DNA of 64,000 nt from Spirochaetota bacterium (GTDB taxonomy: Bacteria; Spirochaetota; UBA4802; UBA5550), in NCBI GenBank assembly GCA_025457915.1, contig JALOTL010000006.1:1-64000 (forward strand), read 5' to 3'. Position numbers and translations under genes: made by a program. Shown here one piece after another: positions 31,898 to 52,506 of the stretch. Below the pieces are notes generated by a model, which saw nothing but the letters and a program-made list of their open reading frames with translations, searched no databases and was not told where the DNA came from. Positions within the stretch are counted from its first letter, which is position 1, and each line of letters begins with the position of its first letter.

Positions 31898-33112
31898 TCA
31901 GTCATTATCGATTTTTTTAACGCCTTTCCTTTTATCCTCCGGCTCCTTTTTTCTTTCATCCCACTCGTTCTCCTTCCTCAACTTCATTATCTCTTCGATA
32001 TCCTTTATTTTCCTGTCGATTTTTTTATGGTAAGGATTGTAATCCCTGGTTGTTTTAAATTCCTTCAGCGCGGATTCCATGTCATCAGCAACGTATGATT
32101 TTATCCCTTTATTATAATGATAATCGGCGTCCTTTATGTCATCAACCGTAACCACCTTGGGGATGAGCTTGAAGGTTACATTGAATGAATATACCGGTCC
32201 GAAAACCTTGTTTTCGGAGAATGAAGAATCAATTGTAAATGTAACGTTTTTTATGACAAAATTGAAGCCCAGTCCCAGGGAGTAAGTATTTCCGTTGTTG
32301 AACTGGTAGCCGCCCCTGAGCGATATAATTTCAAGATAGGATATCTCCGCGCCCATATTCAGTCTGAAGCTTTCATTGAAACCGTGCGTGAAATCGTATA
32401 TATCCGATACATTTATAAGGTTTTCAGTGGCGTCGAGGTTGAATCCGAACCATTTGGTCAGTTTGTAAGACATCCCGAGACGGAGCATTCTCGGAAGAGG
32501 GTCATTTTTCACCCTGGTCCCGAGATTCAGTATGGATATGCCTATGTGGAAATTTTTCACCGGAGCGTCAAACGGGGAGTACATGTTGAATCCCTTCAGG
32601 AATCCGAAATCCACCGCGAAAGAATTGAGAAAAAGCGTGTTCACCCTCTGGTATATGTACTTCGCGGAAAGGCCGAGGTAAAAAAGTTCAAAATCATATC
32701 CATAACCTACGGTAGTGTTGCCGGTATAATAAGTGACCTCGCCGGTTTTGATGCCGTTCGCATCGATTTTATCGAACGAGGGGACCCAGAATAACGTATT
32801 GATTATACCGATGTTACCGCCGAGCATCGGAAACGCGATTCCTATGTTCTCCAGCCTGGAGTCTTCAATAAGCTCCTGGTGGAACAATGACAGGACAGGG
32901 TATTTAAGGGTGCCAAGACCGGCAGGATTGTAGTACAGCGTATTGATGTCATTGGTTTCAGCTGTATAGGCCTCGCCCATACCGAGGGACCTGCTCCCCA
33001 CGCCAAGCTCAAGAAATTCAGCACTGGAGGTGCCGACGGACCCGGCCGCAAAAAGGCAAGTATTCGATAAAATAATTATGGATGATGCTATTAGTTTTAT
33101 TACTTTCAACAT
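31898..33112 (-). CDS. PorV/UPF0164-like outer-membrane protein with C-terminal helical repeat tail
   Basis: 404 residues with a signal peptide (SIIILSNTCLFA). It has the family opening AEFLELGVGSRSLGMGEAYTAETNDINTLYYNPAGLGTL, typical of PorV/UPF0164 (FadL-like barrel) proteins known from spirochaetes and Bacteroidetes. Barrel strands continue to about residue 315. The last ~80 residues are different: soluble and helical with a TPR-like unit (HYNKGIKSYVADDMESALKEFK) and a lysine/glutamate-rich tail. A periplasmic protein-interaction domain fused to an outer-membrane barrel is therefore likely. Upstream is the unknown gene next to nadA. Confidence 0.75.
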   Translation of the reverse strand: MLKVIKLIASSIIILSNTCLFAAGSVGTSSAEFLELGVGSRSLGMGEAYTAETNDINTLYYNPAGLGTLKYPVLSLFHQELIEDSRLENIGIAFPMLGGNIGIINTLFWVPSFDKIDANGIKTGEVTYYTGNTTVGYGYDFELFYLGLSAKYIYQRVNTLFLNSFAVDFGFLKGFNMYSPFDAPVKNFHIGISILNLGTRVKNDPLPRMLRLGMSYKLTKWFGFNLDATENLINVSDIYDFTHGFNESFRLNMGAEISYLEIISLRGGYQFNNGNTYSLGLGFNFVIKNVTFTIDSSFSENKVFGPVYSFNVTFKLIPKVVTVDDIKDADYHYNKGIKSYVADDMESALKEFKTTRDYNPYHKKIDRKIKDIEEIMKLRKENEWDERKKEPEDKRKGVKKIDND

Positions 33113-35642: not shown

Positions 35643-37793
35643 TTATATTTTCATTTTATTGGCGCTTTTCGGCGTAATTTTTTTATACCGCTTCTTCATC
35701 CAGTTTTTCAGGTCAGAAATATACCACTTCGAGAATCTCCTGTCGCTCGGACCGCCGGCGATATTGGTATGGGCCTCATCCTTTGAAAAATCAGTTACAA
35801 AACGAAATGACGGGAAAAATGTCGTGAGGCGTCCCGCCGCACGGTAGATCTGTCCCTGGTGGATTGTCGCCCTTCCCCCCGGAAGCGGATATGGTCCCCT
35901 GTCAAAGCCGAGAATCCTCGGCAGTTTGCCGTCAAAAAGAATATTCTTAAAAAGCACACCGTGCGTTTTTCCCCAGGGAATGGGTTTAACGCCGAGATAT
36001 TTTTCAATCGCGCCGGTATAGATTTCATCGCGGGATTTTCCGCCGAACCATGCGGACTTTTTCGCGAGAAGTATCCTGTCGAAGTTCTGGTAAAAATCGA
36101 CAAACAGGCCTGTTTCCTTTCCGAAAAAATCAACCGCTCCTTCACCCATGCCATTTTTACCAAAAACCTCGAGAAAAAGCCCCCGGTATAATTCCTCGAA
36201 AAGATAGGCGGCTTTTGAATCAAGTGAATATTCACAATTCCAATCCCTCAGGACTCTGCCCTGCTCGGTATCGGGGAGCAGGGGTCTTATGATTTTCATG
36301 AAAAGCTCGGCCTGCAGCGAATATACGTCATAATGCATTTTGAAAACATCTTCGGGAGTGAAAGAATCACCCTTTTCAAGGATATCATTGATCCTGTCTG
36401 CACGGTATGATCCCATGGGCATGTTTATGGGCTTCACTTTACCGTATTTATTCAAATCATGATTTGCCGTTGCGAAAAAGCCTTTAACGGGATTATACGC
36501 CCTGGGCAGATCGCGGTAGTTTACAAGACCTTTCCAGTTATTTTTTTTATCCCATCCCGGGAGCGGTATGAATCCGCTAACACCCGGACGCCTTTTTGGG
36601 ACAAGTCCCGACATCTGGAAGCCGATGTTGCCGTGCCTGTCAGCAAGCACCCAGTTCCAGAACGCTTCAATCTGGCCAAGGGCGTCCATGCCCTCCCTCA
36701 CGTTCCGCGCGTCCCAGAGTTTGAGAAAGTACTTCATTGACTGCAAACCGGATTCGGCCGCAGTCCATCTGCTAGAAAGATAATAGCCGTTTTCTGACGG
36801 ATCGCCGTTAAGTACTCCGTGATCATTTTCATAAAAGGTCAGCTCGACTGGAGTTTTCTTTTTCCGGAGGATAAACTCCTTTCGGACCTCGAAGTCCTTC
36901 CATTTCCCGTCATACCGGTACCGGCCGTTTTTACATTCTTCAATCCAGGAATCGATGCAGTCAATGAAGGCATATGTAACGCCCCAGGACAGATCGTTGC
37001 TGCGCCCGATGATAAATGCCGGCGCGCCTGCCATTGTTGCACCGATAATGTATCGTCCCCCGATATCCGCCGCCATCTCATACCAGACGTTCGGCAGCCT
37101 GTTCACCTCGAGGTGAGGATCGTTTGACAGGATCGGCTTTCCCGACGCGGTCTTCTTTCCCGAGATGACCCAGTTGTTGGATGCCATCATCCTCGGAACG
37201 GCTTTCCCCCAGAGGGTTTCCGGCGGTACGACCTTTTCCTGAAGTTTGACTTTTTTCAGGAGTCCGACGTCCAGCCCCTTAAGATTCCCTGGAAATAGTT
37301 CTTCGAGCAACGGGACCGGGACATTATTCTGGACCATTTCGACGAACATGCGCTCCATTTCATCCTGGGATTGCGAAAGTGTCAAATAACCTGCCATCCG
37401 CGCGATAATGATGGTGTGCTCGGCCTTCCATGCTTCAGGTCGGTAGCCCAATAATTTGAATTCACCGGGGATGCTTTCATTAAAAGCGTCATTCACCCCC
37501 TGAACGTACGAATCGAGGACCTGTTTCTCGAGATCGCCGATACCAGCGATGTATCTTTCCGTGTTTCCGCGCCAGTTCATTTTTCTGAAGAAGGTATCGA
37601 TTTGAAGAGAAGTATCGCTGGAATCAAGAAGTTCGCTAAGCCTTCCTTCGCCCAGTATCCGCATAAGGATCATCTGCATGCCCCTGTCCCTGGCATGCAT
37701 ATATCCCATCCCGTAATACACGTCGGCTTTATTTTCCGCCTCTATGTGAGGAATGCCATTCTCATCACGGTATATCGTTATATTCTTTTTCAT
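35643..37793 (-). CDS. Penicillin-acylase-family N-terminal nucleophile hydrolase without signal peptide
   Basis: Family S45 Ntn hydrolase; members cleave amide bonds (beta-lactam side chains, acyl-homoserine lactones, other N-acyl substrates) after autocatalytic splitting into two chains. The expected nucleophile serine follows the alanine in MMASNNWVISGKK (about residue 205), and SNDPHLE comes shortly after. The N-terminal YRDENGIPHIEAENKADVYYGMGYMHARDR is the family alpha-chain start. AGGAG lies six bases before the ATG, so the start is firm, yet no signal peptide exists, unlike most periplasmic relatives. The substrate is unknown. It stands alone, downstream of a compound palindrome. Confidence 0.88.
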   Translation of the reverse strand: MKKNITIYRDENGIPHIEAENKADVYYGMGYMHARDRGMQMILMRILGEGRLSELLDSSDTSLQIDTFFRKMNWRGNTERYIAGIGDLEKQVLDSYVQGVNDAFNESIPGEFKLLGYRPEAWKAEHTIIIARMAGYLTLSQSQDEMERMFVEMVQNNVPVPLLEELFPGNLKGLDVGLLKKVKLQEKVVPPETLWGKAVPRMMASNNWVISGKKTASGKPILSNDPHLEVNRLPNVWYEMAADIGGRYIIGATMAGAPAFIIGRSNDLSWGVTYAFIDCIDSWIEECKNGRYRYDGKWKDFEVRKEFILRKKKTPVELTFYENDHGVLNGDPSENGYYLSSRWTAAESGLQSMKYFLKLWDARNVREGMDALGQIEAFWNWVLADRHGNIGFQMSGLVPKRRPGVSGFIPLPGWDKKNNWKGLVNYRDLPRAYNPVKGFFATANHDLNKYGKVKPINMPMGSYRADRINDILEKGDSFTPEDVFKMHYDVYSLQAELFMKIIRPLLPDTEQGRVLRDWNCEYSLDSKAAYLFEELYRGLFLEVFGKNGMGEGAVDFFGKETGLFVDFYQNFDRILLAKKSAWFGGKSRDEIYTGAIEKYLGVKPIPWGKTHGVLFKNILFDGKLPRILGFDRGPYPLPGGRATIHQGQIYRAAGRLTTFFPSFRFVTDFSKDEAHTNIAGGPSDRRFSKWYISDLKNWMKKRYKKITPKSANKMKI

Positions 37794-38149: not shown

Positions 38150-39292
38150 TTACTGCAGCTTCTTGATGTTGTGGGTATAATCAGTTCTATAAAATTTTGG
38201 GTCCTTGTATCCAATGCCCGGCAGCCAGTTGATTACGATCCCGGCCATTATCCTGCCCCTGGGTGAAACCGACACCCACAGACCCGGTGAAACCTCCTCA
38301 ATTTTCATCCAGCCGGGATAAAAATTAAACTGGAGCAGCTGGTCATAGTTGAAGTTGACGATCATTGAGGCGAGGAGGGAATTGTATTTATCCAGAAATA
38401 TACCGCCGCTGTAAACCATGCTTACCGTTTTCCCGGCCCCCACCAGATTAACCACGACCAGCCTTTTGGTCCTTGTGCCGAAACCGAAAGACAGAGCCAT
38501 ACCGTTGTCCCATTTGTATGATAGGCCGAATATTTCGTTCATGCCCCAGTATACGAATAAATGATAGTGCCTGTTGTCGAAAAACGGGAATTTCCATTTT
38601 AATGAAAAATACTGACCGACGTTTTCGAGCGATTTGTCGGGAAACATGAAGGTCGGCTGCATGTCCCAGTTCGCCATGTTAAGCGATTTGTATAGATTCT
38701 TTACAGGTTCGATGCTTACAAGGAACGGCGCCAGAAGATCGAAAATCCAGAGGTCCGCAACCGGGTCGATAGTTCGTCCCTTGTAATAACCGTTTTCAAC
38801 CACTTCGTTCAGCCAGTGATATGCGTAATAGGTAGTAAAAGCGAAAAAATGAGGTGCCGGAATATTATAATAATTGAAATAATCCACGAGAGACCCGTAA
38901 ATAATCCCGCCCCCGATGAGGTGGAGACTGTAGTTCGGGGGCCACTTCGCCCTTTTATCAATGGTCATGGGAAAGACTTCGGTCTCGAGGAAATTTTTCC
39001 AGCCACCGGTATATTTTACCGCGTCAACCGGATGACTGATGTTTTTCCAAATAGTTGCATGGCTTCCCATGTAAGGAATCCTGAAAATGTTGTGGTCGTT
39101 TCCTGGCCGGCCCTGGAAAATATCAAAACCGCCGTTCAGCATCATGTTGAGCGGATTAAAGCGGTATTCCGATCCGTAATCCTTTCCTGTATAAAATCCA
39201 TAAGTTGGACAGAAAAGGCTTTTCTCATTTGCAAGGATTTCAAATGGAGTTGAAATAACTATCAAGAGAATAAAAGTTTTAAGCAGCCGCAT
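38150..39292 (-). CDS. B2: outer-membrane-type protein, second copy of the B family
   Basis: The start at ATG 39292 gives a signal peptide (RLLKTFILLIVISTPFEILA); the frame extends 22 codons further without one. The ~380-residue protein is a clear paralogue of B1. Shared segments are SHP near residue 90, (Y/W)SLHLxGG, a helix with NE(V/A)VE, then D-x-(V/I)AD-x-x-x-FD-x-LA-x-FL. In the C-terminal half both have (D)(K/R)(Y/N)N(S/A)LL, YP followed by IE, and GL(W/F). The C-terminal half alternates aromatic and small residues like an outer-membrane barrel. Not recognised as a named family; the HP/E/D arrangement loosely recalls DUF3943-type barrels. Last gene of the A1-B1-A2-B2 run. Confidence 0.7.
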   Translation of the reverse strand: MRLLKTFILLIVISTPFEILANEKSLFCPTYGFYTGKDYGSEYRFNPLNMMLNGGFDIFQGRPGNDHNIFRIPYMGSHATIWKNISHPVDAVKYTGGWKNFLETEVFPMTIDKRAKWPPNYSLHLIGGGIIYGSLVDYFNYYNIPAPHFFAFTTYYAYHWLNEVVENGYYKGRTIDPVADLWIFDLLAPFLVSIEPVKNLYKSLNMANWDMQPTFMFPDKSLENVGQYFSLKWKFPFFDNRHYHLFVYWGMNEIFGLSYKWDNGMALSFGFGTRTKRLVVVNLVGAGKTVSMVYSGGIFLDKYNSLLASMIVNFNYDQLLQFNFYPGWMKIEEVSPGLWVSVSPRGRIMAGIVINWLPGIGYKDPKFYRTDYTHNIKKLQ

Positions 39293-39399
39293 CCGGTCAA
39301 ACCCGCATCGTTCCGGTTCTCTTATGAAGTCTGATATAATTGTAAATAAATATTTCATTAAGATTTATTGTGCAAAATAATTCAATCTGTCTCAAGAAT

Positions 39400-40467
39400 T
39401 CAAATATGAAATCCTAAAGAAAATTCGACTCCAAGCTCGCTGAAGGATATTGATTTGCTCCAATCATAATATGTCGTTACCCCGCGCTTAAGGTTAACAC
39501 TCGTCAGGCAGTAAATGGCATTGAAACCGAAGGTCAGCGGCGCCCACCTGTCCAGGGATACATGCGGCCCCAGACCGAAGCGCATGGTGTACCCAGTCAC
39601 CCTTGAAGAGTAATTGATATAATTCAAGGGATAAATATGGTTGTCTCCAATTTTCATCAGGTCCAGGTAGAAAATGCCGGTTTTTCTCAATGCCGGAGCG
39701 GTTGAAAGTCTTCCGTCGATCAATGTTCCGAAGAGCGCGTAGGTATTGATATAAAAGCTTAAATTCCTGTTATTGGTATTGAAAATCCAGTTAATAACCG
39801 GCCCCGCTGACCAGTACTTGAATGTCATCAGGCGGCCGCTTGTAAACACCTTCGTTGGATCCATCGCCCTTTCGATTTTTTCCAGAAACATGCCGTGTAT
39901 AATATCCGTGAAAACAACTTCGTAGCCATATCTGCCCCTTACACCGAACTTGATGCCGGTGAAATCAAGCCACCTCTTTTGCGGAAATTTAATTGATGGC
40001 GCCATTAGATCAAGGTTTACGGACCAGTTTACGGAATAGTTGAGCATTCGAAAATCGAAATAGCCGTATGTTGCGACAAGGGACGGATTTTTTATATCAT
40101 AAGCTTTTTTTTCCTTCTTTGCAAGTTCACCCGTAATCGTGGAATAACCTGCGGATATCCCGATCCAGAGAAATGAATCATGGAAACCTGCCAGCGGGGC
40201 ATTGTAAGCCGGGTCTGTATCCTGTTTCTTTTTTTCATTTATTTTTATCTTTGCCGGGCCGTCAAAGAATATATCTTTTACCATGTCGCGGCGAATGACC
40301 TCTCTTTTCCCGTCTGCGTTAACATAAATAACGGAATTATCAGTCACCTTGTCAATCTTTCCGGTTATTATTTTACCGCTGTTCAGTAAAATTTCATCTG
40401 GAAACGCCAGGAAAGGAATTAAGACCATTGAAAGCGAAAAAATTGTTTTTTTTATTCCGAGTTTCAT
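39400..40467 (-). CDS. A2: exported barrel-like protein with one N-terminal beta repeat
   Basis: Signal peptide (TIFSLSMVLIPFLAFPDE), then one copy of a small beta module (ILLNSGKIITGKIDKVTDN ... IRRDMVKDIFF, about residues 28-72). A linker rich in K/D comes next, and then a ~260-residue barrel-like domain ending in FSLGFHI. The barrel domain is clearly homologous to A1 (both contain GDNHIYPxNYxNYS, GYTMRFGxGPH and RxWAP or KWAP). The frame's first codon is a TTG; the ATG at 40467 is the better start. Not recognised as a named family. It begins 22 bases after B1 ends. Confidence 0.7.
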   Translation of the reverse strand: MKLGIKKTIFSLSMVLIPFLAFPDEILLNSGKIITGKIDKVTDNSVIYVNADGKREVIRRDMVKDIFFDGPAKIKINEKKKQDTDPAYNAPLAGFHDSFLWIGISAGYSTITGELAKKEKKAYDIKNPSLVATYGYFDFRMLNYSVNWSVNLDLMAPSIKFPQKRWLDFTGIKFGVRGRYGYEVVFTDIIHGMFLEKIERAMDPTKVFTSGRLMTFKYWSAGPVINWIFNTNNRNLSFYINTYALFGTLIDGRLSTAPALRKTGIFYLDLMKIGDNHIYPLNYINYSSRVTGYTMRFGLGPHVSLDRWAPLTFGFNAIYCLTSVNLKRGVTTYYDWSKSISFSELGVEFSLGFHI

Positions 40468-40489
40468 ATGCAATAGTATGGGCTTCCCA

Positions 40490-41572
40490 TTAAATGTGCC
40501 ATCCGAAACCGAAAGGCATGTTGATATTCATACCGAATACCGGTCTCTTCTTGCCGTTGATGGCAAAAAACAAACCTATGTCCATATCTTCGATTCTAAT
40601 TGCCGGCGGATAAACGTTAAGGCGCACGAGATAATCCTGCGTGCCGTGAAATATAAGCGACCACAGCAGGGCATTGTTCCTGTCATAATATATGCCGGCG
40701 GCGAGCTTGGTCTGGTGGGCCGTATCTGTAAGCGTGGTTCCATGACGGAATGGATTTACCACCGCGACGCCGGAGCTGATGCTTATATAGTCGTTTCCTG
40801 TCGTATTGATGCTCACGCCGAACATGTAGTGCATTCCCATGATGATAAAAGGCCTTACCTTCTTTCCGAAAACATACGGTCGGAACACATAGCTGCCGCT
40901 GGCATTGTTTATCTGAAGGCTCTTCAAGTCCATGATGGGTTGACCGTACCATGCCCTCATCTGCAGGTTGTTGTAGAAAAATTTTGTTATCGAATCGTTC
41001 AAAAAAAGAAAACAGGCTAGAAAATCGAAAAAATAAAAATCCGCTATATGGTCTATGGCGTAAAGTTTGTTCGGCGTTTCCTCGACGGCTTCATTTCCAA
41101 GACGGGTTGCGTAAACCGTTATGAATGCAAAAATATATGGAAGAAAAAATCCCTGATAATCATAGTATTCTGCCATGGTCCGGAAATCATACGCGCCGCC
41201 GACCAGATGCAGGGACCAGTTCGGAAGACCCGGCACTCCGAATAATTCGTTTGTTATCAGCTTTCTGACTCCGCCTGAGCGTCTTATCGTCTTGATGGGA
41301 TGAGAAACCTGGTTTATTATTTTTGAATGTTTTCTTAGATACTGATACTGATTGAATGCTTTGGGTTCCTGAACTGTATCGAAGGCCAGGTTAAGGTAAT
41401 AAGTGATAGGAAAAAAATCATAATTCAAAGTGCGCGTGTCTTCATTATAAAGCAAATGAGGCTTGATGCTTCTCTCCCTGTTTTCATCGGCAAAAGATGA
41501 TGAGGTTGAAAACATGATCAAAACAGACAGGGGAAATAAAAAAAAGAATTTTCTTATCCGTTTTAAAAACAT
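40490..41572 (-). CDS. B1: outer-membrane-type protein, first copy of the B family
   Basis: 360 residues with a signal peptide (FFFLFPLSVLIMFSTSSSFA). The first half is helical and holds conserved-looking polar residues: SHPIKTIRRSGG, NWSLHLVGGAYDFRTMAEYYDYQ, GNEAVEE and DHIADFYFFDFLACFLF. The second half is barrel-like and ends in GWHI. Pairwise comparison by eye with B2 shows co-linear matches over the whole length. Family unknown. The histidine and acidic residues inside the helical part could form an active site, as in outer-membrane lipid-modifying enzymes, but this is speculation. Confidence 0.7.
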   Translation of the reverse strand: MFLKRIRKFFFLFPLSVLIMFSTSSSFADENRERSIKPHLLYNEDTRTLNYDFFPITYYLNLAFDTVQEPKAFNQYQYLRKHSKIINQVSHPIKTIRRSGGVRKLITNELFGVPGLPNWSLHLVGGAYDFRTMAEYYDYQGFFLPYIFAFITVYATRLGNEAVEETPNKLYAIDHIADFYFFDFLACFLFLNDSITKFFYNNLQMRAWYGQPIMDLKSLQINNASGSYVFRPYVFGKKVRPFIIMGMHYMFGVSINTTGNDYISISSGVAVVNPFRHGTTLTDTAHQTKLAAGIYYDRNNALLWSLIFHGTQDYLVRLNVYPPAIRIEDMDIGLFFAINGKKRPVFGMNINMPFGFGWHI

Positions 41573-41664
41573 GGAATAATACCATTTGGCAGTAAACTAT
41601 TGCTGATCAATCCGTATTTCACTTCAGCGCGCTTCGATTGATATTCATTACACATATAATACCG

Positions 41665-42927
41665 TCAAATATACAGCCCGAGCGAGAGTTCTAACCCGAA
41701 TTCCCCGACCGGCATTGTTTTCTTCCAGTCATAGTACGAGGTGATTCCCCTTCGTAATTTCAATACCGAACTTGAATAAATCGCGTTTGCGCCGATGGTT
41801 ACCGGCGCCCATTTATTGAAACTCATATGTGGACCGATTCCGAAACGCATGGTATATCCGCCAACTTTTGTCGAATAGTTCACATAGTTGAAGGGATAAA
41901 TATGGTTGTCCCCGATCCCCAATAGATCCAGGTAAAACAGGCCGGTTTTTCTGGTGGCCACTGCAGATGCAAGTCTGCCGTCTATTATGGTACCAAAGGC
42001 CGCGTATAGATTCAATAAAAAACTAAAATTATCTCCAGGCGGGCTGATGATAAAATCAATTACCGGTCCTGTTCCCCAGTATTTGTACGTAAGGAGCCTG
42101 CCCTTCGTCATAGTTTTCACGTCGGCTGAATGCTGGATTTTTTTTGCGAAATTGCCGTGCCTTATGCTGCTGGTGATATCAGAGTTGCCGTACCTTGCCT
42201 TTACACCGAATTTAATACCCGTTAAATCAACGCTTTTCTTGCGCGCAAATTTTATGGCCGGCAGCATCAGGTCGAGATCCGCGGACCAGTTGAAAACATA
42301 GCTTGTAAGCTCGTATTCTAAAAAACCATAAGTCGCGACCATCAGGGGCTGTTTCAGCTTGAACGCCCTGTTCTCTTTTTTCAACAATTCACCGTACATC
42401 TCCCCAAAAGCAACGGCAACAGATATTCTCATGAAGGAATCCATGAATCCGCCGGATACGGTACCTGAAGATAAATTCGATTCAACCGTTCCGGTACCGT
42501 CCGGCTTTCCGGATTTTTTCGAATCATTCGCGAAATTTATTGTATTGCCCGTTTCTCCCAGAAAAACCCTTTCGACTGAATCCCGCCTGATTTCAGATTT
42601 TTTCGCGTCCGGGAGCGTGTATGCTATCGAGGTTGCCGTGATCTGATTGATTCTGCAGTCGATGATTCCGCCTTCCCTGAGGTAAATACTGTCATGTATA
42701 TTTTTCAGGAAAAGGATCTGCTGACCGTTTTTATATATTATTTTTGATACTTTTTCAAGATCCTCTTCGCCGAAGAGTGAAAAGCCCGCGGGTTTGTATT
42801 CAATCTTTTTTTTGGTTATCCGTATTATTTCACCTTCAAGCATTCTACCGTTCTTCAAATGTATTTCATCTGCATGGAGAATACATGCCGTAAAGACAAT
42901 GACCATAATGAATCCGATCATCCTCAT
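41665..42927 (-). CDS. A1: exported barrel-like protein with two N-terminal beta repeats
   Basis: 420 residues with a signal peptide (IGFIMVIVFTACILHADE). Two tandem copies of a small beta module follow: IHLKNGRMLEGEIIRITKKKIEYK and, about 50 residues later, IYLREGGIIDCRINQITATSIAYT ending in IRRDSVERVFLG. A Ser/Gly-rich linker (about 130-160) leads to a C-terminal barrel-like domain with GDNHIYPFNYVNYS and GYTMRFGIGPHMSFNKWAP, ending LSLGLYI. Paralogue of A2, which keeps only one beta module. An AGGG precedes the ATG. First gene of the four-gene run; its promoter should be in the 313-base gap upstream. Confidence 0.7.
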   Translation of the reverse strand: MRMIGFIMVIVFTACILHADEIHLKNGRMLEGEIIRITKKKIEYKPAGFSLFGEEDLEKVSKIIYKNGQQILFLKNIHDSIYLREGGIIDCRINQITATSIAYTLPDAKKSEIRRDSVERVFLGETGNTINFANDSKKSGKPDGTGTVESNLSSGTVSGGFMDSFMRISVAVAFGEMYGELLKKENRAFKLKQPLMVATYGFLEYELTSYVFNWSADLDLMLPAIKFARKKSVDLTGIKFGVKARYGNSDITSSIRHGNFAKKIQHSADVKTMTKGRLLTYKYWGTGPVIDFIISPPGDNFSFLLNLYAAFGTIIDGRLASAVATRKTGLFYLDLLGIGDNHIYPFNYVNYSTKVGGYTMRFGIGPHMSFNKWAPVTIGANAIYSSSVLKLRRGITSYYDWKKTMPVGEFGLELSLGLYI

Positions 42928-43240: not shown

Positions 43241-45469
43241 TCAATTTTCTTCAAGGGTTTTAAGCTCGATAAGGTTCAGCCTCAGCCTTCTTGCAATCTC
43301 GCAGGCGAGCCGGTAATAAAAAATTCCCGCGATTTCGGGGTATTCCGCGGTTATCACGTCGAAGTTTTCACGCTTCATTACATAAAGCTCTACATCCCCG
43401 ATCGCCATCGCATCGGCTGATCGGTTTTCAAGATTTAAAAACGACATGTCGCCGAAAAAATCTCCGCGGCCGAAAGAAGCCAGATGATGGGTCGTTCCGT
43501 TAACAAGGGGGAGTTCTATTCTAATGCCGCCTTTTTTTATAAAATATATCTCTCCGCCGGCATCGCCGAAGGTGAAAATTTTTTCCCCATCCGTGAAAAC
43601 TTTTTCCTGTATCCTGCCTGATAGAGTGGAAAGGGCCTTATCGGACGCGCCTTTGAAGAATTCAAACTCCGAAAGGTTCAGGGATTTTTTCTGGAGCGAC
43701 CTGTCCGAATATTCAATGAGTAATTCGTCCTCCACCCATTCAAGGGCGTTATCAAGCTCGTGGAAAAAAATTACCACCTGGTCTTCCGGCAGGAATCCCA
43801 GCGTCTCCAGATAACGGCGTACGTTCTGCCCGGTGGGTACGCTTTGAGGCACGGAGGCGAAGATGAGCAGACCGCCGTTTTCAGTTATTTTCGATTTTAT
43901 CTGGGTGAGCATATTGGCTGCGGTGAAATCAACCGACAGGACCCGCCGCATGTCCAGTATGAAATACCTGCAAATTCCGATATATGGCTCAATCCGGGTG
44001 TAAAGCTGGTCGGTCGTTCCGAAAAAAAGCTGTCCCTGCAGTTCCAGTATCAGGGTTTCCTTCCCCTTGATTTCAAGTATCTCCAGTTCGGATGAAAGCC
44101 GGCTTTTTTTGGAGTATATCTGGTTCCCGAGAGCTATTCTTCTGACAACAGGGAACCGAAGCTGTTCCCTGAGAAACAGGGCGATGGCGAGGCTTATCCC
44201 GACAGCCGCTGCCGCAATCAGGCTCATGCTCAGCGCGGCTATTACAACGGCTAGAATTACGATAAAATCGAATATGGTCGACCTGTGACGCAGAAGCTGT
44301 AAACTTTTCCTGTCAACCATTCTCACGCCCACCACCAGCAGGACCCCTGCCAGAGATGCGAGAGGAATCCATGCGATATATTTTACAAAAAGCACAAGGA
44401 CGATGAGGGAGCTGATGCCTGCGATTATGCCGGATGCCCTGGTTATTCCTCCGCTGTAGATGTTGACAAGTGTCCCTCCCATCGTGCCCGAGCCCGGACT
44501 GCCGCCGAAAAATGCGGAAGCCATGTTCGCCACTCCCTGCCCTACTAGTTCCCTGTTCGAATCATGCCTTGTGCCGGTAATGACGTCAAGGACGACGCAG
44601 GTTTTTAATGTGTCTATGGAAAGCAGGACCCCGAGCGTGAGAGTCGGGACAAGGAACCTTGTCATGCTGGAAAAGGTCAATGACGGGAAAGTGGATAAAT
44701 TGTACGCCACGGATGAATAAATATCCGCCGGTGAAACGTTAATACTACCTATTATTAAACTGTTGTCGCGGACCAGCAGGAGGTTTTCGTTAAAAAAGGC
44801 CAGGATAAAATAGCAGCAGATGCCGGCAGCGAGCGCGGCTATTGAGGCCGGTATTTGTTTCATCACTTTTGGCGTTATAAGCATAATTATGATTGTAACC
44901 ATTCCCACGAGTATGCTTTCCCATCTCCACAGCCCCGGGGATATAACTCCGGATAAAACAGACGTATCCTTGGGAATGCCCAGGAGCCTTGGGAACTGTC
45001 CTATGAATATCAATATCCCGACGCTGCTCAGGTATCCGGCCACTACCGGATATGGTATGTATTTTATGAAAGTCCCGCCCTTAATAAAACCGATGACCAG
45101 CTGGATCAGGCCTGCACCGAAAGCTATGAGATAAATATAAAGAGGAATCAGTTCAATGGCAGTGTTACCGGCAGATACGGTTTCGATCGCAAAAACTGAA
45201 AGTACTGCAGCCGCAGGAGCGCAGGGGGAAGATACGAGGCGCTTGGTTCCGCCGAAAATCGGGGCGATGATACCCAGGACCACCGAGCCTATTATCCCCG
45301 CAACCGCACCTTTTGCGGTGAATTGCTGTCCCAGCGGCGCGAATATTATCAGACCGTATGCTATCGCTGAAGGCAAAGCCACGAGCATGGCTGCGAATCC
45401 GCCGGTAAGATTCCCCATGATGGTCGATTTTCCGTGTTTTAATTTTTGAATAAGGTCCTTCAATGGCAA
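43241..45469 (-). CDS. SulP-family anion transporter with STAS and cyclic-nucleotide-binding domains
   Basis: 742 residues. The membrane domain (about residues 20-420) has the SulP hallmark GLIIFAPLGQQF region, a serine/proline-rich stretch (KRLVSSPCAPAAAVL) and about 10-12 TM helices, with FFGGSPGSGTMGGT in the middle. A STAS domain follows (about 440-560, LILELQGQLFFGTTDQLYTRI, FILDMRRVLSVDFTAANML). A CRP-type cNMP-binding domain (about 600-725) contains GEIYFIKKGGIRIEL and GRGDFFGDMSFL. The start codon is a TTG. As the last gene of cysC-cysD-cysN it probably imports sulfate. The cNMP domain suggests allosteric control. Confidence 0.88.
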   Translation of the reverse strand: MPLKDLIQKLKHGKSTIMGNLTGGFAAMLVALPSAIAYGLIIFAPLGQQFTAKGAVAGIIGSVVLGIIAPIFGGTKRLVSSPCAPAAAVLSVFAIETVSAGNTAIELIPLYIYLIAFGAGLIQLVIGFIKGGTFIKYIPYPVVAGYLSSVGILIFIGQFPRLLGIPKDTSVLSGVISPGLWRWESILVGMVTIIIMLITPKVMKQIPASIAALAAGICCYFILAFFNENLLLVRDNSLIIGSINVSPADIYSSVAYNLSTFPSLTFSSMTRFLVPTLTLGVLLSIDTLKTCVVLDVITGTRHDSNRELVGQGVANMASAFFGGSPGSGTMGGTLVNIYSGGITRASGIIAGISSLIVLVLFVKYIAWIPLASLAGVLLVVGVRMVDRKSLQLLRHRSTIFDFIVILAVVIAALSMSLIAAAAVGISLAIALFLREQLRFPVVRRIALGNQIYSKKSRLSSELEILEIKGKETLILELQGQLFFGTTDQLYTRIEPYIGICRYFILDMRRVLSVDFTAANMLTQIKSKITENGGLLIFASVPQSVPTGQNVRRYLETLGFLPEDQVVIFFHELDNALEWVEDELLIEYSDRSLQKKSLNLSEFEFFKGASDKALSTLSGRIQEKVFTDGEKIFTFGDAGGEIYFIKKGGIRIELPLVNGTTHHLASFGRGDFFGDMSFLNLENRSADAMAIGDVELYVMKRENFDVITAEYPEIAGIFYYRLACEIARRLRLNLIELKTLEEN

Positions 45470-45555
45470 GTTTTCTCTAGTCAGGTAATTGTATATATAT
45501 AATATATCGTCGGTTTATTCGGAGGAAATATCAGAATTTTATGGAAGCTTTATGA

Positions 45556-47358
45556 TCACCAGATCCGGAATATCACTCCTTTATTCTGGAGATCCTCCTT
45601 GATCATCCCGACAGCCTCATCAAGGTTTTCTATCGTGGGGATGTAGAGATCGTATTTCATGTCCGTCGAACCCTCGTCGCCTACCCATACGGCTTCAATT
45701 GACTCTGGGTTTACGGTCGTTTTGATTATTTCAAGATCATACTGGGTGAGGTCGATGGCTGTGACTATCAGGATAATACCGGCATCCAGGAGTATATTGG
45801 ACACCTCTGAAAGCCTCCTGATGTGCTCCTCCGCATTTTCCTTTCTGTCCCTGACTTTGATGTCGGCATCGACGCCGTAAAGCACGTTGCCGATCCCAAG
45901 GAAATAAACGAATTTCCCTTCATCAAACAGGCTTTTTTCAAGGGCCCTTGCAAGGGTTTTCTTGCCGACATCCTTACCCCCGGTTATAAGAATCAGCATG
46001 GATTTCTGGTTGTATCTTTCGTACCTTTTGTCTAAGGGGATCGCGCTTCGTTCCCATTTGTAGTTTCTGAGCAGGACCATGTCCCTTACCCATGATTGCC
46101 TGTCGTCAAGCGATTCAATTATTATTCCTCCGCCTGCTATTTCAAAATCATCCACGATGACGAACCTGCTGGTCAGGGGATTGTCTTCAGCGAGGTCGAA
46201 TGCCGCGGCCTTGGACAGGTTAAGGATGCACTCTGCGACGTCATGCCTGTCAACCTGGTCTTTCCCGGTGCAATCATCAAGGCTTTCAGCGTCGATCATC
46301 CTTAATATTGAATCAAGCTTCATCGGCACCTTGAAAGTCCCGGTTTTAAGAATGTATTCCTTTTTTTTCATAAGCGGCATCTTACCGAGCCAGAAAAGGC
46401 TGACCCTCATCATCGAAGAAACCGTCGGCTGTTTCTCCCCGGCTTTAGCGGCAAGCTCGCCCCTTTTTATGAATATCTGCTCATCCAGGGTTAAGCCTGT
46501 CGTGGACGGAGCGGCCATCATTTCGCCTGGCGCGGAATTGAATGATTCTATGCTTTTCACCCTGCTTTTTTTTCCGGATGGGTAGAATACTATACCGTCA
46601 CCGATATTTATGGATCCGGCATCTATAGTTCCGGCCACGATCCTCCTTCCGTCGCCGAATTTAGTAAACTTGTATACGTCCTGTACCGGCATTCTGAACG
46701 GCTTCAACACCGGGCTTTCGTACGGGATGAAATCATCGAGCAGTTCAAGTACGCTTTTTCCCGAGTACCATCCCATTGAATTGTTTCCCGGGGTTATGTT
46801 GTCCCCGTTTCTGCCGCTCACAGGTATGAAAAGCTTCGGCTCGACTTTGAGCCCCCTGAGAAAATTCCCGTATTCCGACACGATGCCGTCATAAACGGAT
46901 TTTTCGTATCCGACGAGGTCCATCTTGTTCACGAGGACGGCTATTTGCCTGACCCCCAGCATGGAAAGAAGGAAGCCGTGTCGCCTGGAATTTTCCCTGA
47001 TTCCCTCTTCAGCATCAATGACGAGGAGCGCGGCTTCTGCCCTTGAAGCGCCGGTAATCATGTTTTTCAAGAATTCGATATGTCCCGGCGCGTCTATGAT
47101 GATAAAATCGCGTTTGACGGTCTTGAAGAAAACCCTTGCGGCGTCGATTGTTATGCCCTGTGATTGTTCATCCTTCAGTGCGTCGATCAGGAAAGCGTAT
47201 TCGAATGGCTTTGAATTGATTTCGCAGTTGTTTTTAACCTGCTCAAGCTTGCCCTCGGGAAGGGAGTCGGTATCCGCAAGGAGCCTGCCCACTATGGTGC
47301 TTTTACCGTGATCGACGTGCCCCACGAACACGAGGTTTAGTTTTTCGCGGAGTCCCAT
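45556..47358 (-). CDS. cysN: Sulfate adenylyltransferase GTPase subunit fused to a degenerate APS-kinase domain
   Basis: CysN activates sulfate to APS together with CysD. The G domain shows GHVDHGKST (13-21), [15 protein letters not shown] and NKMDLVGY, then two beta-barrel domains to about residue 430. The last ~147 residues resemble an APS-kinase (CysC) domain, but the P-loop is GGKDVGKKT and the DGD motif is replaced by GIGN, so it is probably catalytically dead or altered. A separate intact cysC is two genes upstream. The ATG at 47358 is one base after the cysD stop; the longer frame is not needed. Confidence 0.9.
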
Positions 47359-47359
47359 G

Positions 47360-48241
47360 TCACATGTATCCGTCGCGTCTGAGGGTTTCAAGTCCCCCGC
47401 CGTCGTCTTTGTCCTGGGCCCTGCCGGACCTTTCGGCGATGTTTTTAAGTTTCCCGCTTTTCAGTTCTTCGATAACTTCATCAACCGAAGCGGATTCCGA
47501 TTCTATCGGCATGGTACACGGCCAGCAGCCGAGAGACCTGTATCTTTTTTTATCGCCCTTGTTGTAATATAGCGAAACAGTGGGTATGCCCTCTCTCCTG
47601 ATGTATTCCCAGATGTTGAGTTCGGTCCAGTCGAGAAGCGGGTGGATCCTCACATGGGTCCCGGGCGCGAAATCCGTCTTGTACTGGTTCCAGAATTCCG
47701 GCGGCTGGTCCCCGATGTTCCATTCGCTCTGCCTGTCCCTCGGTGAAAAATATCTTTCCTTCGATCGCGAGCCCTCTTCGTCGGCCCTTACGCCTACGAT
47801 AACTCCTGTAAAGGGTTCCTTGTTGGTGTCTACAGCGTATTCCCCGGCCCTGTGATCGAATTTAAAGCGCCTGCCCTTTCCGTTCAGCGTGTTCACAAGG
47901 GCCGTTGTTTTAAGGTTCCTGCAGCAGGTTATCCTGTCCACGGTACCGTCAGGATAGGTCTTCTTTGCCGCGATGGCCTCGTCGTTAACTCCGTAGATCA
48001 TGGTAAGGTTCCATTCACGGGTCAGCCTGTCGCGATATTCAATCATTTCAGGAATTTTATAGAGAGTGTCTATGTGGACAAGGGGTATGGGAACATGGCC
48101 GAAAAAGGCCTTCCTCGTCAGCCAGAGAAGAACCGTCGAGTCCTTGCCTATGGACCAGAGCATGCAGAGGTTCTTGAAATTCGCATACGCCTCGCGTATT
48201 ATGTGAACTCCTATGTTTTCCAGTCGGTCAAGATGGTCCAT
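47360..48241 (-). CDS. cysD: Sulfate adenylyltransferase subunit 2
   Basis: CysD is the PP-loop ATP pyrophosphatase subunit forming APS from sulfate and ATP. The PP-loop motif [12 protein letters not shown] lies at about residues 30-41. Other family segments are [20 protein letters not shown]-like ([11 protein letters not shown]), [21 protein letters not shown] and [15 protein letters not shown], with GCWPCTMPI near the C-terminus. It is 293 residues, normal length. It lies between cysC (6 bases) and cysN (1 base) in one operon. Confidence 0.96.
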
Positions 48242-48247
48242 TTTGTT

Positions 48248-48793
48248 TCATCCGTGGATGTATCCTTCCAGCTTCGACAATAAATACGCGAAGGACTCTT
48301 CTAAACTATTGCCGGCGGTATTTATCGTTATTTCAGGATTTACCGGCGGTTCATACGGATCGTCAATCCCGGTAAAATTTTTTAATTCCCCGGATCTTGC
48401 CTTTCCATAGAGCCCCTTGACGTCCCTTTTTTCGCACTCATTCAGAGGTGTAGACACGTAGACCTCGATAAACTTTTTGCAGAGGCCCCGCGCATGCTCC
48501 CTTGATTCAACGTAAGGTGAAATCAGGGATGTAATCGCTATCACGCCGTTTCTCTCGAGAAGAGACGCTATGTATGCCGTTCTTTTTATATGGCTGTTTC
48601 TATCTTCCCTGCTGAAACCGGTATTCGGGAATATGGCCCTCAAAGTATCACCATCCAGCAGTTCAACCCTTTCCCCGTTTTTTTTGAAATGATCGTTTAA
48701 CATGACTGCGAGCGTAGTCTTACCGGATCCCGATAAACCCGTGAACCATACGACGAATGACGACGGCTGTTTGTCCTGTAAATCCATTTCCAT
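48248..48793 (-). CDS. cysC: Adenylylsulfate kinase
   Basis: CysC phosphorylates APS to PAPS, the sulfuryl donor. P-loop GLSGSGKTT is at 19-27 and the DGD motif (LLDGDTLR) at 47-49. SREDRNSHIKR and the lid region with KGLYGKARSGELKNFTGIDDPYE, all canonical, make this the likely active kinase of the operon. Length 181 residues. A promoter with TTGACA lies just upstream, so cysC-cysD-cysN-sulP is one transcription unit. Confidence 0.96.
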   Translation of the reverse strand: MEMDLQDKQPSSFVVWFTGLSGSGKTTLAVMLNDHFKKNGERVELLDGDTLRAIFPNTGFSREDRNSHIKRTAYIASLLERNGVIAITSLISPYVESREHARGLCKKFIEVYVSTPLNECEKRDVKGLYGKARSGELKNFTGIDDPYEPPVNPEITINTAGNSLEESFAYLLSKLEGYIHG

Positions 48794-49027
48794 AAATCGA
48801 TGTCAGATGATTTCAGAGAAGCTGATGGGGTTTGTCAAGATAATATAATTCATATATATTATTTTATTTTTTAACCATATGGAAATTCATTCTTAAAGCA
48901 AAACAATTAAGAAAAACATTAAACATTTAATATATTTGTTCAATTTGTACTCTATTTTATAAAGGATCAAATTTTTTTCATTTACAATTTATCAAACAAA
49001 GGATTTTTTTATCACAGGGGTTGAATT
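48794..49027. other. Divergent regulatory region between cysC and pstS
   Basis: 234 AT-rich bases. It carries the minus-strand cys promoter (48810-48838) and, for pstS, a weak plus-strand pair TTGTTC (48936-48941), 16 bases, TATAAA (48958-48963). AGGGG lies before the pstS ATG. I saw no convincing Pho-box or Cys-regulator site. Confidence 0.5.
48810..48838 (-). promoter_or_regulatory. Promoter of the cysC-cysD-cysN-sulP operon
   Basis: On the minus strand TTGACA (48838-48833), a 17-base spacer, TGAAAT (48815-48810). The start of transcription would fall about ten bases before the cysC ATG, leaving a very short leader. A second in-frame ATG six bases on may be used. Confidence 0.45.
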
Positions 49028-49963
49028 ATGAAACGCATTTCAATATACCTTGTCACGGCATTGCTCGGCCTGGCATCCTGCGCGCCGCAGGCACAGGATG
49101 TAAAAGAAGCAATAACAATATCAGGCGCCTGGGCACTTTATCCGCTGACCGTTAAATGGGCGGAGGAATATAAAAAAATCCGCAAGGGAATCAAAATAAA
49201 TGTCATGGCAGGCGGCGCCGGCAAGGGAATGGCTGACGTGCTTTCCGGGATAGTGGACATTGCCGCCGTATCGAGGGAAATATATCCAGATGAAAAGAAC
49301 AGGGGAGCCTGTCATTTCCCCGTGGCGATTGATGCCGTAATTCCAACCGCAAACTCGGCCAATCCCGTCATCTCTGCATTGCTAAAAAAAGGAATTAAAC
49401 GTGAACAAATTAGAAGTTTATGGATAACCGGCAATCCGAAAACCTGGGGCGGTCTTGCGGGCACATCGGACAATACCGCAATCAATCTGTATACAAGATC
49501 AGACTCCTGCGGGGCGGCGGAAACCTGGGCAGGTTTCATTTTAAATAAACAGGAAGACCTCAAGGGGACAGGCGTTTACGGGGATCCCGGAATAGTTGAG
49601 GCCGTAAAAAAAGACCCGTCCGGCATGGGATATAATAATGTCAATTTCGCATACGATGCTTCGACTAAAAGGCCCGTAGCCGGCATATTCGTGGTGCCTG
49701 TTGATTTCAATGGGAACGGCATCATAGATAAAAATGAAAATTTTTACAATTCACGCGATGAGCTGATGTCGGCCATTTCCTCAGGAAAGTTCCCCTTCCC
49801 CCCGGCCAGGCGCCTTTATTTTGTGACAAAGGGCAAACCGGCAAAAAAGGAATTAAAGGAATTCATCAGGTGGGTGCTTACTCATGGAAGGAGCTTTGTG
49901 GATGAAACGGGTTATATAAATATCCCGGAAAAAGATTCAAGAAATGAATTAAAAAGGTTGTGA
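49028..49963 (+). CDS. pstS: Phosphate ABC transporter substrate-binding lipoprotein (PstS-like)
   Basis: 311 residues with a lipoprotein signal peptide ending LASC (residues 1-18). The early SGAWALYPLTVKWAEEYKK and GAGKGMADVLSGIVDIAAVSREI match the PstS pattern, and YTRSDSCGAAETWAGFIL is the ligand-loop region. An AGGGG Shine-Dalgarno precedes the ATG. It is followed at 7 bases by pstC. Adjacency to cysC raises sulfate as an alternative ligand, but the fold signature is that of phosphate binders. Confidence 0.85.
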   Translation: MKRISIYLVTALLGLASCAPQAQDVKEAITISGAWALYPLTVKWAEEYKKIRKGIKINVMAGGAGKGMADVLSGIVDIAAVSREIYPDEKNRGACHFPVAIDAVIPTANSANPVISALLKKGIKREQIRSLWITGNPKTWGGLAGTSDNTAINLYTRSDSCGAAETWAGFILNKQEDLKGTGVYGDPGIVEAVKKDPSGMGYNNVNFAYDASTKRPVAGIFVVPVDFNGNGIIDKNENFYNSRDELMSAISSGKFPFPPARRLYFVTKGKPAKKELKEFIRWVLTHGRSFVDETGYINIPEKDSRNELKRL

Positions 49964-49970
49964 CCTGAAT

Positions 49971-50900
49971 ATGCCGCTCCCATCATTTATCCCTTTCAAG
50001 GGTCTGTCTGCCGGAAAATTTAAGAACATCTCCGCAAGGACCCTTTTTTTAATTGCCGCGCTGTTTATAAACTTCATTCTCTTATCGATCATTATATGGC
50101 TGACTGTGAAATCCGCCCCGGTATGGGTCGAAAAATCCATCCCGGGGCTTCTTCTTTCACAGGTCTGGTTTCCCGCCAGGGGCGGATTCGGAATGTTTTC
50201 ATTCATTATCGGCACCGTTCTTTCCACTCTCCTTGCGGTAATACTGGCAGCGCCTCCGGCCATTCTTTCCGCCATATATCTTCATGAATACGCGTCAAAA
50301 AAAATCATGACGGCCGGCAGGACGCTTATTGACCTTCTTGCCGGGATACCGTCCGTGGTATTCGGCCTGTGGGGGATTATTACGGTCGTACCGCTAGTCA
50401 GGAACCACATCGCACCTGCCTTTGGAATTAATACGACCGGTTACTGCCTTCTTTCCTGCGGTCTGGTTCTTTCCATAATGATAGTTCCCGTCATCATGCT
50501 GATGGTGATTGAGGTCCTGGATGGCATACCGAACGAGCTGCGGGAATCCTCCCTTGCGCTCGGCGCAACGAGATGGCAGACCGTCAAACATGTTGTCATG
50601 CGCATGGCATATCCCGGCATTCTTTCAGCCGTGGCCCTGGGCATATCCCGCGCCATCGGTGAAACCATGGCCGTTCTCATGGTGGCGGGAAACGTACCGG
50701 CCGTCCCATCGTCAGTGTTCGAACCGGTCTACCCGCTCCCGGCCCTCATTGCTAACAATTACGGCGAGATGCTTTCAATACCGTTGTACGACTCCGCCCT
50801 CATGTTCTCCGCGCTGGTGCTTCTGGCGATGGTGCTTGTTTTCAACATCGGTCTGCATATCTTTAAAAAAACAGCGCGATACGGCGGTCAGACTTCATGA
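49971..50900 (+). CDS. pstC: Phosphate ABC transporter permease PstC
   Basis: 309 residues with six predicted TM helices. The permease EAA-like loop contains ELRESSLALGATRWQTVKHVVM, and SRAIGETMAVLMVAGN is a typical PstC segment. IPSVVFGLWGI is also a family hallmark. Its stop overlaps the pstA ATG by four bases, indicating coupled translation. Confidence 0.92.
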   Translation: MPLPSFIPFKGLSAGKFKNISARTLFLIAALFINFILLSIIIWLTVKSAPVWVEKSIPGLLLSQVWFPARGGFGMFSFIIGTVLSTLLAVILAAPPAILSAIYLHEYASKKIMTAGRTLIDLLAGIPSVVFGLWGIITVVPLVRNHIAPAFGINTTGYCLLSCGLVLSIMIVPVIMLMVIEVLDGIPNELRESSLALGATRWQTVKHVVMRMAYPGILSAVALGISRAIGETMAVLMVAGNVPAVPSSVFEPVYPLPALIANNYGEMLSIPLYDSALMFSALVLLAMVLVFNIGLHIFKKTARYGGQTS

Positions 50901-51745
50901 AAGGAAGGATTATTGAGGAAAAAATATTCACGCTCCTGATGGCCTTCTCGTCGCTTGCTATTTTTGCGTCGCTTATCCTGCTGATAGGCTCGGTGATCTT
51001 CAAGGGCGCACCGGCCCTGGACCTTGCCATGGTCACGGAAGCTCCTTCCGGCGGATTTTATCTGGGGAAAAAAGGAGGGGTGCTTAATGCCATTCTCGGG
51101 TCGTTTTTCCTTGCCGGAGGGGCGGTCTTCATCTCTCTTGTTCTTTCAATACCGATCGTGATGTACATAAACCACTATTCATCAAAAGGCTCCCTGCTGA
51201 ATACCGCCACACGGTTTTCAATAGACGTCCTGAGCGGCGTTCCATCAATCATTTTCGGTGTTTTCGGATTCTCGATCATGATAATTCTCGGGATTAAGGC
51301 CTCGCTGCTCGGCGGAATGATAACGGTCGCCATGCTTGTCCTCCCGGTCATGTGCCGGGCCGTTGACGAGGTCGCGAGGCTGGTACCGGAAGAGCTGCCT
51401 GAGTCAGTCCATGCCCTGGGGGCAACCAGATACGACGTCATAAAAGTTTCGCTGAGGCAGATCCTTCCTGGAATATTGACGGCCATAATGATTTCATTCG
51501 GCCGGGCGATCGGGGACGCCGCATCGGTCCTTTTTACAGCCGGTTTTACCGATGAAATGCCGCTTTCACTTTTACAGCCGGCCGCCACGCTTCCGCTTTC
51601 AATATTTTTCCAGATAAATTCGCCAGTGGCGGAGGTTCAAAACAGGGCCTACGCCTCGGCTCTCATTCTTACAGCGGTGATTCTTTCAATAAGCCTCTCT
51701 GTAAGGATAATCGCCTCGAAAATGAAAAAAAAAGTGGTTAAATGA
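50897..51745 (+). CDS. pstA: Phosphate ABC transporter permease PstA
   Basis: 282 residues with six predicted TM helices. The hallmark segments are GVPSIIFGVFGF, the EAA loop LPESVHALGATRYDVIKVSLRQ and FGRAIGDAASVLFTAGF. It pairs with PstC to form the membrane channel. Starts inside the end of pstC and is followed after 8 bases by pstB. Confidence 0.92.
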   Translation: MKGRIIEEKIFTLLMAFSSLAIFASLILLIGSVIFKGAPALDLAMVTEAPSGGFYLGKKGGVLNAILGSFFLAGGAVFISLVLSIPIVMYINHYSSKGSLLNTATRFSIDVLSGVPSIIFGVFGFSIMIILGIKASLLGGMITVAMLVLPVMCRAVDEVARLVPEELPESVHALGATRYDVIKVSLRQILPGILTAIMISFGRAIGDAASVLFTAGFTDEMPLSLLQPAATLPLSIFFQINSPVAEVQNRAYASALILTAVILSISLSVRIIASKMKKKVVK

Positions 51746-51753
51746 AATAAACA

Positions 51754-52506
51754 ATGCCGCATGTTAAAGTGAATAAATTCAATCTCTATTTCGGAAATGA
51801 TCATATTCTGAAGGATATTGATGTTTCAATTCCGGATAAACAGATTACCGTGATAATAGGACCCTCGGGATGCGGAAAGACGACACTGTTAAAATCATTC
51901 AACAGGTTGATTGATTTGCAGGATAATGTGAAGACCGACGGAAGGATTTTAATCGACGGTGAGGATGTTTTTTCCCGGAACGCTGATTTATGTTCTATAA
52001 GGAAAAAAATGGGGCTTCTTCTTCAAAAGCCATATCCCCTTCCCATGTCGATATACGACAACGTCGCATACGGTCCCAGGATTCACGGGTTGAAGAAAGG
52101 CGGGGATCTTGACGGATTAGTTGAACATTATCTCAAAGAAGCAAGCCTCTGGGACGAAGTGAAAGGAAGGCTTCACGCTCCCGCCGGCAATCTGTCCCTG
52201 GGACAGCAGCAGAGGCTGTGCCTTGCCAGGGGGCTGGCCGTTGAACCGGAAATAATCCTTGCGGATGAACCTACGTCCGCGCTGGATCCGCTTTCAACAG
52301 CAAGGATAGAAAAAACTTTTATAAAACTCAAAAAGAGCTACACCATCATCGCCGTAACACATATCCTGAGACAGGCGAAAAGAATCGCTGATTATGTAAT
52401 ATTCATGTATTACGGGCGTGTGATCGAGCACGGTCCAGCGTCAAAAGTGCTCGAAAATCCCGAAAAAGATGTAACAAAGGAATATGTAAACGGCGTCATC
52501 AGTTAA
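51754..52506 (+). CDS. pstB: Phosphate ABC transporter ATPase PstB
   Basis: 250 residues. Walker A GPSGCGKTT (about 36-44), the PstB-type ILIDGEDVF, Q-loop MGLLLQKPYPLPMSIYDNVAYGPR, signature LSLGQQQRLCLARGLAVEPEIILADEPTSALDP, and ending with EYVNGVIS. No phoU gene follows; the next gene is convergent and its end overlaps pstB by eight bases. Confidence 0.94.
   Translation: MPHVKVNKFNLYFGNDHILKDIDVSIPDKQITVIIGPSGCGKTTLLKSFNRLIDLQDNVKTDGRILIDGEDVFSRNADLCSIRKKMGLLLQKPYPLPMSIYDNVAYGPRIHGLKKGGDLDGLVEHYLKEASLWDEVKGRLHAPAGNLSLGQQQRLCLARGLAVEPEIILADEPTSALDPLSTARIEKTFIKLKKSYTIIAVTHILRQAKRIADYVIFMYYGRVIEHGPASKVLENPEKDVTKEYVNGVIS

Follow-up and report, generated by a model that had tools for sequence, protein, structure and literature searches.

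The DNA analyzed here (the window, 64,000 nucleotides) is part of contig C18 (271,916 bp) in a 3.66-Mb draft genome of a Spirochaetota bacterium. The ORF list contained four minus-strand genes, arranged head to tail in the order A1-B1-A2-B2, which encode two types of protein (Table 1). The alternation described in the first-pass annotation was thus recovered with every gene in its place. In BLASTP comparisons A1 and A2 were 45% identical over 362 amino acids (E = 4e-117), and B1 and B2 were 28% identical over 359 amino acids (E = 1e-39). The genes are separated by 92, 16, and 41 bp, which would allow a single transcript. Promoter-like sites at the cluster were found at the frequency of shuffled sequences. 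The cluster is bordered by gene-free stretches of 313 bp on the A1 side and 356 bp on the B2 side, beyond which lie genes for a sulfate permease (43241-45469) and a penicillin amidase (35643-37793), respectively. The GC content of the cluster is about that of the window mean, and nothing suggests an artefact. The adjacent positions 43241-54638 form a sulfate-use neighborhood with genes for the sulfate permease, which has a cyclic-nucleotide domain, CysN/CysD-like proteins, APS kinase, a substrate-binding ABC transporter, and sulfotransferase. Positions 31898-33112 encode a member of UPF0164, a family whose function is unknown.

Table 1. Genes and domains of the A1-B1-A2-B2 cluster, in window positions
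Feature	Position	Strand	Description	Basis
A1, 420 aa	41665..42927	-	Signal peptide, two Lepto_7-like N-terminal repeats, C-terminal probable outer-membrane beta-barrel	ORF; NF047433 E 9.6e-10
A1 C-terminal region, residues 158-420	41665..42456	-	Conserved across the A family	Alignment, search of 393 genomes
B1, 360 aa	40490..41572	-	Signal peptide, helical Lipocone-like domain, beta-rich C-terminal half	ORF
B1 Lipocone-like domain, residues 100-205	40958..41275	-	Invariant N118, H122, N160, E161, E164, D174, A177, D178	DUF2279 profile match
A2, 357 aa, TTG start	39400..40473	-	Signal peptide, one Lepto_7-like repeat, C-terminal probable beta-barrel	ORF; NF047433 E 3.7e-6
B2, 402 aa as called	38150..39358	-	Lipocone-like domain, beta-rich C-terminal half	ORF
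B2 Lipocone-like domain	38672..38989	-	H146, E185, E188, D198, D202	Aligned to B1

The N termini of all four proteins carry a hydrophobic segment (mean hydropathy 1.7-2.0) with a plausible cleavage site at its end; for B2, an alternative start at residue 23 gave a better signal peptide. Segments that resemble the signal peptides proposed earlier were found in each protein, and export of both types, probably to the outer membrane, is likely. The earlier view that neither family is a recognized one also held, as neither A nor B has a Pfam annotation. The short segments that had been listed as shared were only partly retained in the wider families. For A, GYTMRFG-GP recurred family-wide in the form GYT-R-G-GP, and GDNHIYP was particular to A1 and A2. 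For B, LHL-GG, NE-VE, and D..AD...F were kept in relatives, and SHP was not.

All 13 long A proteins matched Lepto_7_Nterm (NF047433), a Leptospira N-terminal domain, with a best E value of 8.5e-13. A1 contains two stretches of this domain and A2 contains one; their scores of 38.1 and 26.6 bits are both below the cut-off of 43 bits. No family match was obtained for the C-terminal ~260 residues. A1 ends in a hydrophobic residue, as barrel proteins do, and a match to OMP_b-brl was obtained for two of the 13 members (best E 0.017). The AlphaFold model of A was poor. The barrel-like C-terminal halves suggested for all four proteins are plausible, with weak support from the amphipathic-strand test (p 0.05-0.44 for A and 0.13-0.34 for B). 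A is probably an order-specific combination of a Leptospira-type N-terminal domain with an outer-membrane barrel. A PDB sequence search with A gave no match, and literature searches on the Leptospira N-terminal domain and on the relatives found nothing.

Searches for B covered 393 genomes of the phylum and 46 genomes of the order, and six genomes carried it; as the assemblies are drafts, some absences of A or B may be gaps. A search with a closer sequence set led to Spirochaetes bacteria RBG_13_51_14 and RBG_16_49_21 as the nearest named records. Neither Pfam nor NCBIfam assigned B to a family, and none of the seven B members matched in a Pfam search, including above-cut-off matches to PF10043 (DUF2279) and PF13084 (DUF3943). 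The PDB sequence search with B returned designed helical proteins only. In the helical half of B, the residues N118, H122, G125, N160, E161, E164, D174, A177, and D178 (B1 numbering) were present in all seven homologues, and W208, Q211, P212, and N223 were common to the seven beyond it.

The resulting motifs N-x3-H, NE-x2-E, and D-x2-AD fit the signature of the recently described Lipocone superfamily (PMC12419801): a histidine in helix 2, a glutamate in helix 3 with an aspartate or glutamate at the end of that helix, and an aspartate in helix 4 that is followed downstream by a polar residue. H122, E161, and D174/D178 supply the histidine, glutamate, and aspartate in the right order, with helices taken from a low-confidence model. 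E164 and D178 are invariant as the acid at the end of helix 3 and the polar residue of helix 4; the helix-4 glycine occurs in several homologues and is missing from B1 and B2. AlphaFold models built from 4- and 2-row alignments had pLDDT values of 32 (B1) and 33 (A). The helices of the B1 model (residues 119-140, 144-165, and 175-189) agree with the signature at this very low confidence (mean pLDDT 32). The H/E/D site that had been suspected in the helical half of B is likely. Lipocone members with shown activity are PTDSS1/2 and TelC. The DUF2279 and DUF3943 Lipocones are reported to belong to the outer membrane and to be, in almost every case, fused with or linked to barrels; as many as three DUF3943 proteins can stand side by side (PMC12419801).

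Both DUF2279 and DUF3943 are common in the order, and B was compared with their profiles. With the full-length DUF2279 profile a score of 24.4 was obtained against a null of 16.3 (sd 2.9; p 0.015, 600 shuffles). After trimming to the domain plus flank, the score was 24.5 against a null of 13.6 (sd 2.6; z 4.1) and was reached by 0 of 400 shuffles; the motif had been noticed before testing and was used for the trimming. The local alignment of 102-119 columns placed histidine on histidine and glutamate on glutamate unprompted, and extended to where the beta half begins. Among unrelated control families, z values ranged from -0.8 to 0.2. The A family, which was not expected to be related, reached z 2.47 in the full-length test through a 25-column beta stretch, so that this test is not fully clean. 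Searching B's own genome with the full-length DUF2279 profile did not find B at E values up to 1. For DUF3943, a conserved-letter test gave p ≤0.003 and another profile test p 0.03. Membership of B in DUF3943 was rejected, since the first trimmed profile test gave p 0.37 and PF13084 did not match. The lone sub-threshold DUF3943 match in this genome is on contig C44, away from B. DUF3943 and B did not overlap in the family (5 and 5 of 20 genomes), a complementarity that is not significant (chance ~0.19).

These results could also be read to mean that B is an unrelated order-specific outer-membrane family, in which the conserved H/E/D residues bind metal or hold the fold and short polar motifs on hydrophobic helices have come to look like those of Lipocones by convergence. 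Such a reading would account for the lack of a Pfam match, the low hhalign probabilities for B against these profiles (1.5-8%), and the negative outcome of the first DUF3943 test. It does not sit well with an unprompted DUF2279 alignment in register at H and E over more than a hundred columns, nor with a trimmed score beyond all shuffles while the control families stayed at the null level, and we consider it a possible but less likely account. As judged from sequence comparison, remote homology of B to DUF2279 proteins, rather than membership of either Pfam family, has moderate support.

Among the 46 genomes of the order, A and B are linked in this genome only. Three genomes (G042, G097, and G122) have a single B gene of B1 type at 38-39% identity to B1, located between a class II tRNA synthetase gene (read as asparaginyl type) and a DNA polymerase IV gene. 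The B gene of G162 is of B2 type, with 47% identity to B2 (B2 against B1, 28%); it adjoins chorismate synthase and is accompanied in its genome only by a short divergent A-like gene. G146 has a distant B gene and lacks A. Long A genes were found in ten genomes including this one. Outside this genome they never share a contig with B and lie in different contexts, and six genomes (G102, G107, G135, G198, G087, and G170) have a long A gene and no B.

The gene trees of the two families differ. A1 and A2 are sisters with a support of 99/99. In the B tree, B2 and the G162 protein are split from B1 and the proteins of genus g3 with a support of 99-100%. The AU test rejected sisterhood of B1 and B2, and forcing them together cost 96-97 log units. 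By these comparisons B1 and B2 are ancient paralogues, each with orthologues of its own, and A1 and A2 are recent sisters. The B genes parted long before the A genes, so that no A-B pair was duplicated together, barring homogenization of the A genes by gene conversion.

The first-pass annotation had read the four genes as a pair duplicated with its order kept, and had concluded that both proteins work together; A and B would then be a dedicated two-protein complex copied as a unit. The alternating order and short gaps in this genome agree with this proposal, as does the frequent adjacency of Lipocone and barrel genes elsewhere (PMC12419801). However, the survey of genomes for A-B adjacency, for which unlinked genes had been named beforehand as the adverse outcome, found A and B unlinked in G042, G097, and G122, and each of them occurs alone (long A in six genomes, B in G146). 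The trees likewise contradict co-duplication, although gene conversion among the A genes could rescue the idea. An obligate two-gene module is thus mostly unsupported, and a dedicated complex appears improbable. A and B may still be partners in this one species. If the present reading is right, a neat A-B-A-B order can arise without duplication of a pair, which calls for caution in inferring function from gene order in a single genome.

The contexts of A in relatives were also inspected. In four genomes of genus g3, A lies in the order 7TMR-DISM hybrid kinase, LytTR regulator, A, B12/radical-SAM enzyme, AMP-ligase, and acyltransferase (L044:1997-11270 in G122, with the same order in G042, G097, and G107). 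The kinase is split into shorter ORFs in two of the four genomes, the acyltransferase is malonyl-transferase-like, and the AMP-ligase and acyltransferase are also kept in G198. The cluster has the appearance of a regulated pathway for lipids or polyketides. A further A gene in G042 and G102 follows a kinase-like gene and precedes an ECF sigma factor, a weakly DUF4384-like gene, and a caspase-barrel fusion. In the fusions, a caspase (Peptidase_C14) domain is joined to an A-type barrel (L043:9624-11615 in G102, E 1.7e-11; L040:7953-10046 in G042). DUF3943 and DUF2279 genes were tried as partners of an A barrel and rejected, because their matches were on other contigs or far from A.

The position of A beside a histidine kinase and a LytTR regulator and ahead of the biosynthetic genes in g3, together with the sigma factor and caspase-barrel fusion in G042 and G102, would fit a role as sensor or target barrel of envelope signaling; its place beside B would then be a chance assembly of two outer-membrane gene types. 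Against this, none of the kinase, sigma factor, radical-SAM, or caspase genes of the relatives adjoins the A genes of the window, and the context in relatives may concern lipid synthesis and not sensing. A signaling role of A is regarded as tentative.

The reading that we prefer, with a probability of about 0.5, is that B1 and B2 are divergent outer-membrane Lipocones or close relatives, nearest to YfiM-DUF2279, that act on lipid head groups, and that A is an optional barrel companion. B would be exported and would comprise a helical cone, in which one helix bears H122, the following one has E161/E164 at its end, and the final one carries D174/D178, and a beta-rich C-terminal half that lies in or at the outer membrane. 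The cone may hold a lipid tail, and an outer-membrane or carrier lipid may have its phosphate-linked head group swapped or cleaved at the H/E/D site; this chemistry is proposed by analogy with PTDSS1/2 and TelC of the Lipocone superfamily. An A gene would have come to lie beside each B gene in this species, and A may help to place or serve B. As a companion of B it is neither ancestral nor required. A more speculative extension is that B represents an additional Lipocone family, restricted to a single spirochaete order and combining cone and outer-membrane beta-domain in one chain. In this species, two such enzymes would each have acquired an unrelated barrel as companion, which would make a pair of outer-membrane lipid-editing units that differ in age. 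If the assignment is true, B would be a new, unannotated outer-membrane branch of the Lipocone superfamily and would place lipid-head-group chemistry in the outer membrane of uncultured spirochaetes.

Three known systems resemble these proteins. The N-terminal domain of the Leptospira LA_0442/LA_0875 (NF047433) and LB_137 family proteins is matched by all 13 long A proteins, but A1 and A2 fall under the curated cut-off and the barrel half of A is without a family match. YfiM-Griddle (DUF3943, PF13084), which is known beside barrels and up to three in a row (PMC12419801), shares with B an N-x3-H-x3-G motif, a paired glutamate, and an aspartate 13-14 residues on. The spacing also fits that of B, with 34 from H to E in DUF3943. 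B differs in its weak profile support, its lack of a PF13084 match, and the absence of the R, S, and GE motifs. This genome also encodes one DUF2279 protein of Lipocone-barrel layout (G000:C10:49829-50815; L128, L140). YfiM-DUF2279 (PF10043) occurs in the same order as B, and there, like B, comprises exported proteins of 300-380 amino acids in which a beta-rich half comes after a helical H / E-x2-D / D-x2-AD domain. B differs in lacking a PF10043 match and the GGADK-GH and PxLD motifs and in having E164 for the aspartate (E-x2-E instead of E-x2-D). The spacing fits, with a distance from H to E of 41 in DUF2279 and 39 in B, and the D-x2-AD motif is common to both.
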